Origin: a virus
DNA length: 50,292 nt
Direction: 5' to 3' (one strand)
Virus record (IMG/VR): IMGVR_UViG_3300005253_000344
Coordinates: 1-50,292 of that record
Below, in pieces: positions 25,316 to 39,310 of the stretch. Below the pieces are notes generated by a model. It saw nothing but the letters and a program-made list of their open reading frames with translations, was not told the DNA's origin and did no database searches. The translations under genes were made by a program, and so were the position numbers. Positions within the stretch are counted from its first letter, which is position 1. Each line of letters starts with the position of its first letter.

Positions 25316-27100
25316 TTATACTCCTGGTTCTGAGGTCCTGGCACTCTGTGATTCGTTTGCACCTATCTGTTCTGTTTGTTTTCTCTCCTGAAATGGAGAT
25401 TGTACTTTAGCTTGTTGTGCGACACCTTTAGTACCACCACTCTGCCCAGGTGTAGCCTTACCTGCTGGTTGTGGATTCATCGCCATTCGTAATTGAATAC
25501 GCTGCATAAACTGTGGATCATCGAACCAATCTCGAACATCTTCAAGGATACCCATTTCTTCCGCAATATCAGTTAAGGATGTCTGAACATTAAATGGCAA
25601 TCCCATATTCATTGCTACCATAGCAGAGTTCATTATACTTTGCATAATATTAGTACCGAACTCTACAATGCGTTTAGTCCTAACAGCCGGATCAAGGCGT
25701 GACATCGATCTTGCTTTAATGGTAAATGTATAATCAAGAAAGTCACCGTCTCTTTGTTCCGGTGTTAGATGCAACTGAACATTCTCACTACCTGGTTTCC
25801 TTCTGGAAAGCATAATATCCATAAACGGATCAGTATGTAAATACCAAGCTCTCTTCTCAGCAGTATCCGCAGCAAAATCATAAATCATCCCACGTGCATC
25901 TTCAATAGTTATAGTCGCGTTGGCTTGCAAAATGTTAGCCTGTGTCGCTGATTCAGCATTAGATACCAGACCAGACATCTGATCTGGATTACCCGACATG
26001 TAGTTATGCCATATCTGACACTGTTGAAGCATGGCTTCACTTTTCACATTGTTACCACCATAAGTAATCACTTTAACGGTATCAGGATTACCCATCACTG
26101 TGCCGCCATCTTCAGTAGTTCTTATATCCTCAGCTTCATCAGCACCAGCCGGATCTACAATAGCAATACTCTTTTCGCGGTCAGCTTGATTCATGTTTTT
26201 GACCATCATTTTATTAGCCATCACATGCAGATCATAATGAATCCCAACTGGGGCCACTGGAAATGGATTGCCCGGCACTGGTTGTGTCAAAGCAAGTATA
26301 GAATATGGTCCTTCTTTCGGACCATAATAATCTCGTGCAGCAAGATATTCAGGGAAAATTATTTGTTTTGGATCTGGTATAGTGATCAACGCATTGGCCC
26401 CAGGAACAAATACTTCTACCACATCAACAAAATCCTGAAGCTCATACATTTCACTATCACTGAAGTTTCTCTTGCTAAGAGATTCAACTTTATCTTTAGC
26501 ATTAGGATGAGTTGACTTCGGTATCTTCATTACAAGATCATGATCCATCTCATCGTCATCCAACAAAATCTGTCGCGGAACTCGATTTCTATCACCCATG
26601 AACGCAGCTTTGCGATAATCTTTACACGATGGATCTGCGGTGAGATCATCGAAATCAACAAGATCTGTGTACACCTGTCCTTCGTCAATGAATATATCAC
26701 CGAAATTCAGTATTTGCCCGCCACCAGCCAAACCAGTTTTAGCTATCCCCATCATGAAGAAAGCGTCAACAATAGCAGCCCTTAGTGTATCTTTAATCTT
26801 TATTTGCTTGTCGCCTTTGTCTAATGCGAGTCCAAGCAAATAAGCATATTGTTCGTATTCTACGATTTCAGTTGATACTTTGTTGACTCCACTTTTCATC
26901 ACGAGATTCGGAACAGTGGCCCGAATCGTATTGAATATCAAGTTGATTGGTTCTTCACCAGTCAAGCCGTACTCAGATGCGTAATAGCGACCTACATATT
27001 CCTTGATAAACATCGCTCTCGCTCTTCGGTGGCGTTTGTTCCTCTCGAATCCCTGCTTAACTGCAAGAGCAAATTTAGAAGGTGTAAAGTATTCTGGCAT
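25316..27100 (-). CDS. Portal protein
   Basis: 594 residues, directly after the large terminase gene as usual. Helical N-terminus, a wing/clip-like beta region around residues 140-290, then a long helical crown. The NMNQADREKS and NAESATQANILQANATI segments fall where portal stem and crown helices are expected. The C-terminal 70 residues are Gln/Gly/Pro-rich and disordered. It forms the DNA channel at one capsid vertex. Recognised by order, length and character. Confidence 0.8.
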   Translation of the reverse strand: MPEYFTPSKFALAVKQGFERNKRHRRARAMFIKEYVGRYYASEYGLTGEEPINLIFNTIRATVPNLVMKSGVNKVSTEIVEYEQYAYLLGLALDKGDKQIKIKDTLRAAIVDAFFMMGIAKTGLAGGGQILNFGDIFIDEGQVYTDLVDFDDLTADPSCKDYRKAAFMGDRNRVPRQILLDDDEMDHDLVMKIPKSTHPNAKDKVESLSKRNFSDSEMYELQDFVDVVEVFVPGANALITIPDPKQIIFPEYLAARDYYGPKEGPYSILALTQPVPGNPFPVAPVGIHYDLHVMANKMMVKNMNQADREKSIAIVDPAGADEAEDIRTTEDGGTVMGNPDTVKVITYGGNNVKSEAMLQQCQIWHNYMSGNPDQMSGLVSNAESATQANILQANATITIEDARGMIYDFAADTAEKRAWYLHTDPFMDIMLSRRKPGSENVQLHLTPEQRDGDFLDYTFTIKARSMSRLDPAVRTKRIVEFGTNIMQSIMNSAMVAMNMGLPFNVQTSLTDIAEEMGILEDVRDWFDDPQFMQRIQLRMAMNPQPAGKATPGQSGGTKGVAQQAKVQSPFQERKQTEQIGANESQSARTSEPGV

Positions 27101-27102
27101 CT

Positions 27103-29022
27103 CTATCCTCTAAAATCAAATTTAGACCGCCAACCTTTAGGTTTGGCACGTCTTTGTTTCAGTGCGGCTCTACGTCCAGCCGGTGTTCGCATGTCGTTTC
27201 GTGCTTCTGATGTCGTTTGCTTAGTCCTCATCTTATAATATTTATCTTCTATCGTAAGTGCATCAGCCATCGTTCTGTCACCATGAGTTTTCTTAGCAGA
27301 AGAACTCTCCTCGACTAAACATGCAGGGCCAACACCACCACTATCATAATAAATATAAGTCTTGGCCTCTTCAAGCGATATTATAGAATGATTAATATAA
27401 CCGCCATGAGCTAATGCACGATCATACGCATTAAGTAATTCACCTTTAGACTTCTCATTATTATGCCAACCATATTTCTTAGTTTTCTTATCCCTAATAT
27501 TACCAACTTTAACATCACGGTAATAGTATGGATAATGAAACTCTTTAACTATTCTCTTGCCAAAGTCATAGCCAGGATCACCGTTCATCTCCCATTTCAG
27601 AAACGGAAGTTTCTTACGACCGCCAACCCATAATGCCAGTGCCATAGCGATACGAGCCATCTCAAACGGCGGTGTGTTAGCATCGGCCCACTCACCTACC
27701 TTCTCACCAGTCTGTCTACACTTAATCGATCCGACCGAATTAGAAGCACCCTGGCCCTTAGACAAATCAAACCCGATGACATAATCATAGTTCTGATCCA
27801 ACCTACCATTTACAAGATTGACCCAGATCTTGAGTCTGCCCTTCACTGCCCTTTTACACGATACCCTCTTGAGATCCTTTTTCTTCAGGATCATTGGGAT
27901 ACTGTCACTCGGTGTTCCCCTTACCAGATCTACATCCCAACACGTCTTAGGTTGTTTACCGAATATAGCTATGTGTTTATCAATGTTAGTTATAGTGAAG
28001 AATGACGAACCGGCCTCAAGGTCATCGGCATCAATCTCCCTTGCCATCTCCCGTGGTGATCTAACTGTGTCCTCTATGTCGTACCACGGTGATCTGATCT
28101 TCCAGGCATTCGTCACTGAATCTTGAACTACATGGCGACCCTTGCCCTTATCTGGATGATCCCACCACATCAACGGAAACACTATAATCGTTCCATCGTT
28201 CTTCCACTTGGAATATTCAGTTCCGGGTCCGGCCACTGTACTATTCACAATACGCATCAGTGCTGCATCTCTTGTCGCACTACGCATCAGCCGACCATGT
28301 TTCACTTTAGCAAACTCGTCCAACAGAGCAACCAACCGTCTGTCACCTGATGCTGCATGTTCCGTGGTCGATTCACCATCAATACAAGAACCATTGAGAA
28401 TGTTAAACAGGTGCATTTTGGTACGGTATTTCTGGCCAACACCACAGTGAGGTGGTATCATCCATTCAGGCAACCAGGTATTGATATAGTCATGCTTTTG
28501 GAATAAAGCTTTCATGTTGCCAGCTTGGTCAACGTATGGTTCAGTTCTTGATAACTCAAGAAGTTGTGAATTAGGTCTGAACAACCACAACCAGTGCATG
28601 AAAATCGTACAAATCCAACTTGCACCCATATCACGCGACTTATTGATCAAGATGTCTTTAGCGTTAGCAAGATGCCATACCAGACGTTCAAACAAGATGT
28701 CCTGAATTTCCCATGTATTAAACGGGTTGTGGACTTCTAAGGCTTCATGCCGTTCCCCAGTGTCACCAGAGACATCAAATTGATGAAAAGTCCAGACGAA
28801 AGTGTTCACCCAGAACAAAAGGCTTTCCCTACTCGCAGCCATCAGATCATCCTGAAAACCTTTATCGTACTCTGCGTCACGTAAGATCTCTGCCCTGTAG
28901 TCAATGTTAGCTATCTCTCTCTTCGGTACGATCAATCCGGTATTGGTACATTTCCAAAACTCAGGGATGTTTGGAAAAGGTGTCGCAAGTTCTGGCTTCA
29001 GTTTTTCGGTTACATCGATCAT
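27103..29022 (-). CDS. Large terminase subunit (TerL)
   Basis: 639 residues. ATPase: an adapted Walker A, NKSRDMGASW (127-136), and Walker B LVALLDEF (230-237, Asp235 Glu236). Nuclease of RNase H type: VIGFDLSKG (415-423, Asp419), LKWEMNGDPG (Glu478) and HGDRTMADAL (580-589, catalytic Asp). It pumps and cuts DNA during packaging together with the portal. All key acidic residues are visible. The C-terminal 40 residues are basic. Confidence 0.93.
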   Translation of the reverse strand: MIDVTEKLKPELATPFPNIPEFWKCTNTGLIVPKREIANIDYRAEILRDAEYDKGFQDDLMAASRESLLFWVNTFVWTFHQFDVSGDTGERHEALEVHNPFNTWEIQDILFERLVWHLANAKDILINKSRDMGASWICTIFMHWLWLFRPNSQLLELSRTEPYVDQAGNMKALFQKHDYINTWLPEWMIPPHCGVGQKYRTKMHLFNILNGSCIDGESTTEHAASGDRRLVALLDEFAKVKHGRLMRSATRDAALMRIVNSTVAGPGTEYSKWKNDGTIIVFPLMWWDHPDKGKGRHVVQDSVTNAWKIRSPWYDIEDTVRSPREMAREIDADDLEAGSSFFTITNIDKHIAIFGKQPKTCWDVDLVRGTPSDSIPMILKKKDLKRVSCKRAVKGRLKIWVNLVNGRLDQNYDYVIGFDLSKGQGASNSVGSIKCRQTGEKVGEWADANTPPFEMARIAMALALWVGGRKKLPFLKWEMNGDPGYDFGKRIVKEFHYPYYYRDVKVGNIRDKKTKKYGWHNNEKSKGELLNAYDRALAHGGYINHSIISLEEAKTYIYYDSGGVGPACLVEESSSAKKTHGDRTMADALTIEDKYYKMRTKQTTSEARNDMRTPAGRRAALKQRRAKPKGWRSKFDFRG

Positions 29023-30894: not shown

Positions 30895-31065
30895 TTACTG
30901 TTGTTCACCTAATCTAAACTTCTTTCTACACTTCCTATTCTGATATATGACTGTACTGCCCTCTATGGCGAATATTCCGAAATGTGTATCAACGACATAA
31001 CAGTATGGACATGTAGCTTCGATGTATTCGATGTCGTTCCATTCTGTGCAGATCCTGAGCGTCAT
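30895..31065 (-). CDS. First gene of the late operon: 56-residue Cys protein
   Basis: ATG at 31065 preceded by AGAGAGGACT. 56 residues with CPYC near residue 19 and a single later Cys (KCRKKFRLG), a partial zinc-ribbon pattern. It starts 17 bases after the conserved 32-base element and so is probably the first gene transcribed leftward. Confidence 0.55.
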   Translation of the reverse strand: MTLRICTEWNDIEYIEATCPYCYVVDTHFGIFAIEGSTVIYQNRKCRKKFRLGEQQ

Positions 31066-31081: not shown

Positions 31082-31113
31082 TACCGGAGAATTGGAACTA
31101 TTTGCAAGGTTTC
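31082..31113 (-). promoter_or_regulatory. 32-base conserved element, copy 1 (candidate late promoter)
   Basis: The minus strand here is identical for 32 bases to the plus strand at 38881-38912. It contains TTGCAA, then 18 bases, then a TAGTAT-like box, with an A/T-rich stretch just upstream, as in promoters with UP elements. The first structural gene starts 17 bases further on. Most likely the promoter or activator site of the leftward structural operon. Confidence 0.6.
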
Positions 31114-32050: not shown

Positions 32051-32503
32051 TATACCTTTAGTAGTACACCTTTAGGTATATACCTTTAGTGGCAGTCTAG
32101 GTAGATTGTAGATGTACCTAGACACAAAACTCCATTATCAGGCCAATAATAGCTATGTGTCTAGGATGGTCTAGGTAGATTAGGCATACCTAGACGGCAA
32201 TAAACTCTTGCCTAGTATAGACTTACAAGCGAAAACACTGAATGTGTCTAGGTACACGAGATAAAACTCTTATATACATATATTACTATCTACTATCTAC
32301 TATACCCTATTGGTCTATACTCTTATATATTACTAAGGAAGTTTTAACACACTACCTAGACACAATAGACCAAAACAACCATAACACCAGTATCATAAAC
32401 AGTTTATCCGTGTCTAGGTACAAACAAGTTACCTAGACCATCATAGACACAACAGCCATATTGAACCAATACCGCAGATGCTGTGTCTAGGATGGTCTAG
32501 GTA
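32051..32503. repeat. Array of GTCTAGGTA repeats in both orientations (candidate origin or operator array)
   Basis: Forward GTCTAGG(T/A) cores lie at 32095, 32159, 32169, 32246, 32412, 32485 and 32495. Inverted TACCTAGAC cores lie at 32115, 32187, 32353 and 32430. A 24-base unit is repeated exactly at 32156-32179 and 32482-32505. At the left edge TATACCTTTAGT is repeated at 32051-32062 and 32079-32090. The whole region is A/T-rich, gene-free and sits between divergent operons. Iteron-type origins and multi-site operators look like this; I cannot tell which. The rest of 31914-32610 shows no convincing gene. Confidence 0.75.
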
Positions 32504-34067: not shown

Positions 34068-34096
34068 TTGACACGATATATTGGTTATGGTATAAT
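34068..34096 (+). promoter_or_regulatory. Consensus sigma70 promoter
   Basis: TTGACA at 34068-34073, exactly 17 bases, TATAAT at 34091-34096, with TGG before the -10 (extended). A perfect match to the bacterial housekeeping consensus. The predicted start (about 34103) falls at the ATG of a mini-gene at 34104. Confidence 0.85.
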
Positions 34097-36350: not shown

Positions 36351-36689
36351 ATGAGTTTAGTATATAGAATCCAGAGCAAGCAGGACAGGACGCGTGGTGC
36401 GTATCGAAGTCACGTATATGGTGATGATTTGCCGGACATAGTACACCGAATGAGAAATACTCATCACGATTATCAGTGTGGTGGTAAACATCCTACACCG
36501 TTAGCCGATACTAAACGTTATATATATAAACATGAATTTTGCGGTTTTAACTCAGCAGCAGACCTGCTCCGTTGGTTCAAGGGCTTCATCCCCGATTTGC
36601 TTCGAGCCGGATATGAGATTGTCGCATTGCGTGATGTGACGGTAACAGCCGTTGGAGAATTTCAGGTATTATTTACATTTAATACTTGA
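36351..36689 (+). CDS. Hypothetical protein, 112 aa
   Basis: I prefer the ATG at 36351 over an in-frame ATG at 36297, because the extra 18 codons are the hairpin. 112 residues: VYRIQSKQDRTRGAYR, HHDYQCGGKHPTPLAD, FNSAADLLRWF and VTVTAVGEFQVLF. The His/Asp-rich middle and order of motifs recur in phage proteins of unknown function. Confidence 0.6.
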   Translation: MSLVYRIQSKQDRTRGAYRSHVYGDDLPDIVHRMRNTHHDYQCGGKHPTPLADTKRYIYKHEFCGFNSAADLLRWFKGFIPDLLRAGYEIVALRDVTVTAVGEFQVLFTFNT

Positions 36690-36714
36690 CAAGCCGATTC
36701 GATTATGGTATAAT
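36686..36714 (+). promoter_or_regulatory. Consensus sigma70 promoter
   Basis: TTGACA at 36686-36691, 17 bases, TATAAT at 36709-36714, with TGG before the -10. It overlaps the end of the previous gene. The transcript would start at about 36721, at a four-codon mini-ORF (MKVR) that overlaps the ribosome site of the next gene. Confidence 0.85.
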
Positions 36715-38174: not shown

Positions 38175-38438
38175 ATGTTATACCGAATCCAAATTGACCA
38201 AAGGTTTGACAAACAAAAAGCCGTAATCGAAGCCGTGAAGGAACTGGCAAGCGACTTCATAATTCTGACCGGCATGGCATATTTTGGTAATAATCACAGG
38301 CCGTGCCAGGTGATTGAAATTAACTGCAGCGACTTCATAGGTGCTGCCGTGACTGCCTGTGTCAATAAGCTCAAAAAGATATTGAACATGCCACACATAA
38401 TGGTGACGCGGACTGATACGAATAAGGTGACGTATTGA
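38175..38438 (+). CDS. Hypothetical alpha/beta protein, 87 aa
   Basis: ATG at 38175 after GAGGTAATAAT. 87 residues: helical start (QKAVIEAVKELASDF) and beta strands (IILTGMAYF, CQVIEINC). Its stop overlaps the TTG start of the HTH gene. Confidence 0.55.
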   Translation: MLYRIQIDQRFDKQKAVIEAVKELASDFIILTGMAYFGNNHRPCQVIEINCSDFIGAAVTACVNKLKKILNMPHIMVTRTDTNKVTY

Positions 38439-38728
38439 AACGACTAATCACAGAACAAGAAGAGCAAGCATACAGATTATGTTCACCGGATTTCTTCGGT
38501 CTAACATATGAGAACGCAGCAATACTCCTGCATTGTCATTTGAACACAGTTTGGTATAGGCTCAATCGACTTAAAGCGAAAGCTCCGCAACTATTTTATG
38601 ATGGTTTTATCAGGCCAAGAACGCCGCATACTGGTAATCCGAATGATTATGGTGCTAAAGGGGGAAGTGTAAATTTTGTAATGTCTTATCATCCTTCGAT
38701 GGATGGTGACATTAAAATGAAATTCTGA
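38435..38728 (+). CDS. HTH / sigma region 4-like protein A
   Basis: 97 residues from a TTG start (TTGA overlap, AAGGTG upstream). LITEQEEQAYRLCS and GLTYENAAILLHCHLNTVWY form an HTH of sigma70 region 4 or LuxR type, followed by RLNRLKAKAPQLF. It ends MSYHPSMDGDIKMKF. The next gene is a paralogue with the same start and end motifs. Likely a transcription regulator. Confidence 0.6.
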   Translation: MKRLITEQEEQAYRLCSPDFFGLTYENAAILLHCHLNTVWYRLNRLKAKAPQLFYDGFIRPRTPHTGNPNDYGAKGGSVNFVMSYHPSMDGDIKMKF

Positions 38729-38799
38729 TTATAGATTAAGTCCCCCACCCGGGGCATATTACATGAGGTGCGGTAACAGATTTCAGAGTTTGGAAGCAA

Positions 38800-38823
38800 T
38801 GGCCAGTCGGGGAATCCTGGCCA
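38800..38823 (+). promoter_or_regulatory. Hairpin in the intergenic gap
   Basis: TGGCCAG (38800-38806) pairs with CTGGCCA (38817-38823) around a 10-base loop. The T run is 40 bases further on, so termination is doubtful. The rest of 38729-38880 is gene-free, A/T-rich near 38860-38878. Confidence 0.4.
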
Positions 38824-38880
38824 GAGCTTCTGGGCTTTGTCCGATAAGGTTATTTATAAAATTTTTTAGATTTTTTGGCG

Positions 38881-38912
38881 GAAACCTTGCAAATAGTTCC
38901 AATTCTCCGGTA
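38881..38912 (+). promoter_or_regulatory. 32-base conserved element, copy 2
   Basis: Identical to the minus strand of 31082-31113. TTGCAA at 38887-38892 with an A/T-rich stretch upstream, then 18 bases to TATGGT at 38911-38916. It directly abuts, and overlaps the first base of, the second HTH gene. If it is a promoter, transcription starts near 38923, inside the annotated start of that gene. Confidence 0.6.
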
Positions 38913-39310
38913 TGGTGAGGGCATATATAATAACTAAGCGATTGATAACTAAAAAACAGGAACAAGCACTTAAGCTTTGTCACCATGAATTTGACGGCTT
39001 AACACAAGTTGAAGCAGCAGAACAGGTGGGTATTAGCCACCAAGCCATAAGTGATTTATTAGCCCGCGTTAAAAAAGTCCTTCCACAATATTTTCCTATT
39101 TTTACAAAACTTGAAATGAGATGGTATCATTATTATATGGTTGATGGTTGGAGTGTTGCTGATATAGCAGAATATACTGAATCCTCGCCGGATACAATTT
39201 ATAAAGCACTCAAAAGAATAAGAAGTAAAGGAGCATATTTCACTGAACCGACAAATCGAGTATTGTCCTATGATGAGAGCATGGATGCTAACATAAAACA
39301 GAAATTTTAA
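38912..39310 (+). CDS. HTH / sigma-like protein B (two HTH motifs)
   Basis: 132 residues in the open frame. KRLITKKQEQALKLC, then GLTQVEAAEQVGISHQAISDLL is a clear sigma-region-4-type HTH. A second HTH (DGWSVADIAEYTESSPDTIYKALKRI) follows, and it ends LSYDESMDANIKQKF. It matches protein A at both ends. The ATG at 38912 has no ribosome site and lies in the likely -10 box, so TTG 38942 (MITKKQEQ) is an alternative start. Candidate switch protein for the two operons that carry the 32-base element. Confidence 0.65.
   Translation: MVRAYIITKRLITKKQEQALKLCHHEFDGLTQVEAAEQVGISHQAISDLLARVKKVLPQYFPIFTKLEMRWYHYYMVDGWSVADIAEYTESSPDTIYKALKRIRSKGAYFTEPTNRVLSYDESMDANIKQKF

Follow-up and report, generated by a model that had tools for sequence, protein, structure and literature searches.

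Phage-encoded activators that replace recognition of the -35 element are already known. At the middle promoters of T4, the -35 element gives way to a MotA box with its centre at -30, and the sigma70 -10 element is kept (PMC2988021). The T4 proteins gp55, gp33 and gp43 carry one short C-terminal motif on flexible linkers (PMC2988020), and Xpf, a regulator of Bacillus subtilis PBSX, is listed as having both sigma2 and sigma4 (PMC10141391). Here we describe two neighbouring phage proteins, A and B, which we read, with a probability of roughly 0.6 and on the strength of sequence comparison, as members of a virus-specific family of small activators, B being an autoregulated late activator that would act with host RNA polymerase and A its early trigger. 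As far as could be found, with incomplete coverage of the literature, a family with a fixed tail and exchangeable DNA-binding parts is apparently undescribed, and no description of the tail was found in the literature examined.

The whole stretch of DNA analysed (the window) is a virus record of 50,292 bases, and its source is an uncultured, probably lytic phage. Leftward virion genes, among them those for a protease, the terminase large subunit (terL) and the portal protein, extend from ∼31.1 to 5.8 kb, and the rightward genes encode replication and nucleotide functions (DNA polymerase, primase, exonuclease and a dGTP-diphosphohydrolase domain). TerL was at most about 35% identical to named relatives over partial length, and the portal protein had no match among them. 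No tRNA or Rfam match was obtained anywhere in the window. Between the divergent gene blocks, the region 32156-32503 contains clustered repeats, both direct and inverted (TGTGTCTAGGATGGTCTAGGTAGA and partners), and is a possible replication origin or regulatory region.

Positions of the features discussed in the text (window coordinates)
Feature	Position	Strand	Details and basis
Sigma70 promoter of early genes	34068..34096	+	12/12, TG-extended
Sigma70 promoter ahead of the run ending in A	36686..36714	+	12/12, TG-extended
Protein A, 97 aa, one sigma-4-like HTH and tail, TTG start	38435..38728	+	ORF, profiles, AlphaFold2
HTH of A (residues 7-49)	38453..38581	+	AlphaFold2 pLDDT about 84-88; weak Sigma70_r4_2
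Tail of A (YHPSMDGDIKMKF)	38687..38725	+	
Hairpin between A and B	38785..38839	+	-28.4 kcal/mol, z -3.3, equalled by 0/200 shuffles
32-nt element copy 1, B promoter	38881..38912	+	-35 position TTGCAA 38887-38892; -10 TATGGT 38911-38916
Protein B ORF, 132 aa from ATG 38912, two HTHs and tail	38912..39310	+	
HTH1 of B (residues 14-56)	38951..39079	+	AlphaFold2 pLDDT >90; UPF0122/YlxM 5.5e-11
HTH2 of B (residues 66-105)	39107..39226	+	AlphaFold2 pLDDT >90; Sigma70_r4_2 9.6e-10
Tail of B (YDESMDANIKQKF)	39269..39307	+	Low pLDDT, short helix
32-nt element copy 2, late promoter	31082..31113	-	-35 position TTGCAA 31107-31102; -10 TAGTAT 31083-31078
First ORF of the leftward virion operon	30895..31065	-	Relatives in G003, G028
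Terminase large subunit (late-operon landmark)	27103..29022	-	phrog_5989, E 4.8e-7
Portal protein (late-operon landmark)	25316..27100	-	phrog_1216, E 4e-5

The gene for A closes a rightward run of tightly packed genes that lies behind a perfect sigma70 promoter. Its TTG start overlaps the stop of the preceding gene, and the sequence TTG-AAA-CGA at this start is common to relatives in G004, G007 and G011. A gap of 183 nt, containing a strong hairpin and a 32-nt element, separates A from B. The ATG at 38912 is the sole ATG for the 132-aa ORF of B; nevertheless, the start of B is uncertain, because the promoter model sets the transcript start near 38923, beyond this ATG. ATA 38930, which aligns with the ATG of relatives, and TTG 38942 are further candidates. 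The length of B is put at ∼125-132 aa.

A first-pass annotation had described A and B as tandem HTH, sigma-like paralogues with a KRLIT...EQA start, a shared C-terminal end and an additional HTH in B. The common start, one sigma-region-4-like HTH and the C-terminal tail were confirmed in both sequences, which terminate in SYHPSMDGDIKMKF (A) and SYDESMDANIKQKF (B) at the very end, and the second HTH of B was found by profiles and by AlphaFold2. Profile comparison (E 2e-32) showed that A corresponds to B minus HTH2; judged from the sequences, A and B are paralogues. A was absent from many phages of the group. The AlphaFold2 model of B, based on an alignment of 24 sequences, was all helical with two confident HTHs (pLDDT >90), and its linker and tail were unpacked (pLDDT 51-66) with a helix at 123-131. 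The model of A showed one HTH of moderate confidence (∼85) and a low-confidence tail. Structure prediction thus yielded HTHs in both proteins, as the annotation had anticipated, and Foldseek gave no convincing full-length match. The description as sigma-like held for region 4, since Sigma70_r4_2 was present in 23 of 24 B-type members (the match of the HTH of A, at 5e-5, was weak and under the Pfam cut-off), but not in the sense of a full sigma factor: no match to Sigma70_r2 was obtained in 13 contigs, with a control that matched in 11 of 14 genomes. A split sigma factor with a phage-encoded sigma2 was rejected on the same ground, no sigma2 being recognised in 13 phages of the group.

The tail has a 13-residue consensus, Y-x3-M-D-x2-[IV]-x2-K-F-stop, with hydrophobic residues at i, i+4, i+8 and i+12. 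It was searched for as a back-translated pattern with TAA/TAG stops in viral contigs and in 85,000 genomes of bacteria and archaea, which returned 44 stretches in the former and 56 in the latter, with no more than two matches per contig and none for the reversed-pattern control. Counted by match, a family HTH lay ahead of the tail in 31/48 viral and 0/56 cellular matches, in keeping with the earlier remark that the motif is conserved and unusual. The viral fraction is descriptive, because the HTH model drew partly on those viral proteins, and the cellular zero is unaffected. The other viral matches were mostly one repeated sequence and random frames, and one was an HNH protein. Looked at from the side of the family, all 36 hits (26 contigs) terminated in the tail or in a near variant, such as KIDDARTKHKF (G028), RAHDHQIKQKF (G010) or SMDKDVKEKY (G022). 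At the fixed residues both codons were used (Y TAT/TAC, D GAT/GAC, K AAA/AAG, F TTT/TTC), indicating selection on the protein. Because of this variation in synonymous codons and the retention of the tail throughout the family, a chance origin of the tail is excluded, and the codon variation also rules out that it is a DNA- or RNA-level element. A wide distribution of the tail in cells was ruled out as well, as none of the 56 genome matches was a family HTH protein. The sole related cellular match (L101 1-430, JADFGB010000044.1), a Bacteroidetes MAG contig, was rejected as a chimeric contig end: it carries the terminal 85 nt of an A-like gene, at 82% identity, and next to them DNA resembling L061, which hints at the presence of such a phage in that sample.

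The tail was found on two-HTH proteins, on one-HTH proteins (L008, L016, L017, L025, L040) and on AP2-HTH proteins (L004, L006; AP2 assigned by eye), and a relaxed tail search returned, apart from the HTH family, a single HNH protein. The latter, HNH-like as assigned by eye, is encoded at L045 10118-10480 (-) (L045 = G022, region 43.1-44.0 kb), between the paired promoter described below and a two-HTH B whose tail ends in Y. Since the tails of the two neighbours are alike (PKRIECQSYTPGMDENIKEKF in the HNH protein vs PKRIKYLSYTPSMDKDVKEKY in B), the HNH protein, as far as its sequence goes, may be an A-like paralogue with a swapped HTH or a mobile gene that captured the tail. It was ruled out as a substitute for B in G022, because B lies next behind the same promoter, and no role as an activator is claimed for it. 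Beyond these contigs, a tblastn search of 50,697 phage records, with four members as queries, yielded no tail-bearing relative; the seemingly full-length Vibrio phage hits (H32-H36) were rejected, as they match inside a 398-aa gene and not C-terminally. The HTHs of the window protein matched sigma-4, YlxM and Xpf-type models, and no match extended to the tail.

The early promoters of the window consist of exact TTGACA-17-TATAAT. In contrast, the promoters of B and of the virion operon lack a -35 consensus, which suggests that early transcription is host-driven and that B and the virion genes need another -35 contact. The first-pass annotation placed B on one copy of a 32-base element. It was found that the element indeed occurs in two exact copies (32/32 identical, with no further copy in the window), but it lies upstream of B as a promoter and overlaps B only in the A of the ATG. 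For its 27-nt core, 0 matches were expected in shuffles. The second copy, on the opposite strand, stands 17 nt ahead of the ORF that opens the virion operon, and the suggested link to operon switching was thereby borne out for B, the promoter element of B recurring at the virion-operon head.

Similar pairs were present in relatives, with 34/36 nt identical in G016, 31/35 in G020 and G014, and 33/39 in G028; the B and late promoter sequences were alike within each phage and unlike between phages. Each of 18 contigs in which terL is also present was compared with itself: the 70 nt preceding the tail gene that occupies the position of B served as the query, the start positions being set by hand from the alignment. 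The best in-genome match lay on the terL strand, 2.1-5.8 kb upstream of terL, in 14 of them (G000, G003, G004, G005, G006, G007, G011, G014, G016, G020, G022, G023, G028 and G029; G007 and G011 are near-duplicates), so that the element of B's own promoter is shared with the virion operon, as looked for in a late activator. Chance placement was estimated at ∼6% (about 6 kb of two 48-kb strands), or ∼1 contig expected. For G007/G011, G023 and G029 the score alone was unexceptional, and it is the place and the -10 element that convince. G015 showed a weak match at the correct place (E 1.6), and no pair was obtained by the same 70-nt search in G021, G026 and G027.

Aligned on the -10 element, the conserved block spans -36 to -19. 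The -10 elements (TAGTAT, TATTAT, TAATAT, TATAGT, TATGGT) follow the sigma70-like form TAnnnT, and the -35 position is occupied by TTGCAA, CGATAA, TTATAA, CTGCAA or TTCAGA, never by TTGACA. A partial dyad, ATTAG-nn-CTAAT, often follows the -35 position, and AT-rich DNA lies directly upstream. Co-variation of half-sites with HTH1 and HTH2 was not specific. After the -10 element and GG, many B and late promoters showed a T-rich transcript start like ATGTTTTT (seen in G002, G003, G007, G014, G016, G022, G023 and G028), and the predicted leaders would be very short. In two phages the B box may have a third copy, oriented as the early genes are, at G006 1860 (-) and G010 517 (+). A T7-like promoter, considered for its resemblance to TATAGAGGG, was provisionally set aside, as no single-subunit polymerase was found in 13 phages, a weak result with a control that matched nowhere.

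The hairpin between A and B has a GGCCAG...CTGGCC core, with similar hairpins in at least two relatives (G004, G007), and is a possible terminator of the A transcript. A second element, gtCCGATAArnnAATnTT, was observed in the window at 38841 (+) and 31377 (+), and in G003, G004, G007, G010, G016 and G028. It lies 40-51 nt ahead of the B box in the same orientation as B. In six of these contigs (not in G010) and in the near-duplicate G011, a further copy that faces the early genes precedes the late box by 130-264 nt. Unlike the B box, this element is similar between phages; it is possibly a site for A or for another regulator.

These observations can be assembled into a putative switch. Each family member would combine an interchangeable DNA-binding part (one or two HTHs, sometimes with AP2 ahead), a flexible linker and the fixed tail. 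Early in infection, host sigma70-RNA polymerase would use the perfect promoters, and A would be made last in such a run. A and then B would bind the -36 to -19 element at B's own promoter, where a sigma70-like -10 stands without a consensus -35. B would amplify its own expression and fire the matching promoter of the virion operon on the opposite strand, and recognition of the -10 element would stay with host sigma70. B looks like a self-amplifying late switch because its promoter sequence recurs only at the virion-operon head. That B acts at both promoters is very probable from the paired sequences, and that its direction of control is activation is likely; the role of A as trigger of the B promoter is presumed. 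The tail may fold as an amphipathic helix which, by docking on host RNA polymerase or its sigma, would make up for the missing -35 contact, a suggestion we hold tentatively, at a little short of even odds. It had also been proposed that the tail binds an antagonist, and nothing points in that direction.

The same layout could be produced if B (or A) repressed its own and the late promoter early, with relief turning on the late genes and the tail serving as an oligomerisation or degradation handle. An element at -36 to -19 with a partial dyad would also suit a repressor, and autoregulated repressors often share operators with their target promoters. On the other hand, the B and late promoters would then have to be usable by sigma70 alone without a -35 consensus, unlike the early promoters, and a scan of small early proteins revealed no recognisable partner that could lift the repression. 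The family is missing from the cellular matches, and there is therefore no sign of lysogeny. Taken together, we regard repression as unlikely.

Two other readings were judged less probable still. The tail might be a tether to the sliding clamp of the replisome, as in T4 gp55 and gp33, coupling late transcription to replication; the tail here is likewise terminal, helical and on a low-confidence linker (AlphaFold2), like the motif shared by gp55, gp33 and the T4 DNA polymerase (PMC2988020). However, the DNA polymerase of the window ends in ...GIDAKISERFCK and carries no tail, the tail is unlike the hydrophobic, acidic type of T4, and the glutamine of the bacterial clamp motif is absent from it, which makes this improbable. 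The duplicated element might instead act in RNA, as a ribosome site or translational operator rather than a promoter, given that AGAGG(G) stands 5-8 nt ahead of the ATG in several B genes. But the element does not fold (z +0.9), and its conservation takes in the -35 and spacer region. In G016, G020, G022 and G023, moreover, 88-157 nt lie between the start of the late-copy element and the next usable ORF, for which AGAGG is thus not the ribosome site, and we give this reading the least credence of the three.

If the tail, with its fixed final KF, were a portable activation domain, any DNA-binding module fused to it (one HTH, two HTHs, AP2-HTH, perhaps HNH) would become a promoter-specific activator; this wider generalisation is rather doubtful. 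If true, it would mean that these phages change DNA specificity freely and keep the polymerase contact. A polymerase-docking tail would be a modular tag in bacterial viruses comparable to eukaryotic activation domains. Such a tag would make it easier to find activators among uncultured phages, and it could be used as a small orthogonal tool for activation. On the activator reading, each genome allows the regulator, its self-promoter and its target promoter to be read off in pairs. This would give a phage group for which no close cultured relative was found a late-gene switch that is complete and testable.

Among described proteins, YlxM/UPF0122 matches the HTH region best, both by fold and by profile, but the match covers HTH1 only and the role is different; B scores 43.1 against Pfam UPF0122 (gathering score 22.7), and its 46.6 bits against the YlxM equivalog NF045758 are under the 80-bit cut-off. 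Like Xpf, B is a phage regulator with a sigma-4-like HTH, and the NCBIfam model 'positive control sigma-like factor' matches 12/24 members; unlike Xpf, B lacks sigma2 and has a second HTH and the tail. T4 gp33 and gp55 also carry a short C-terminal motif on different proteins behind a flexible linker and belong to late transcription. Their motif binds the sliding clamp and is found on gp43 as well, whereas the tail described here differs in sequence and charge and does not occur on the phage polymerase. MotA differs from B in its double-wing DNA-binding domain, in contrast to the tandem HTH and C-terminal tail of B, and it serves middle promoters, without the self/late pairing found here; no AsiA-like partner was recognised by Pfam scan among ten early proteins of the window. 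At the sequence level, nevertheless, the B and late promoters resemble those of T4 MotA (with AsiA), in that a phage box takes the place of the -35 element and the sigma70 -10 element is kept.
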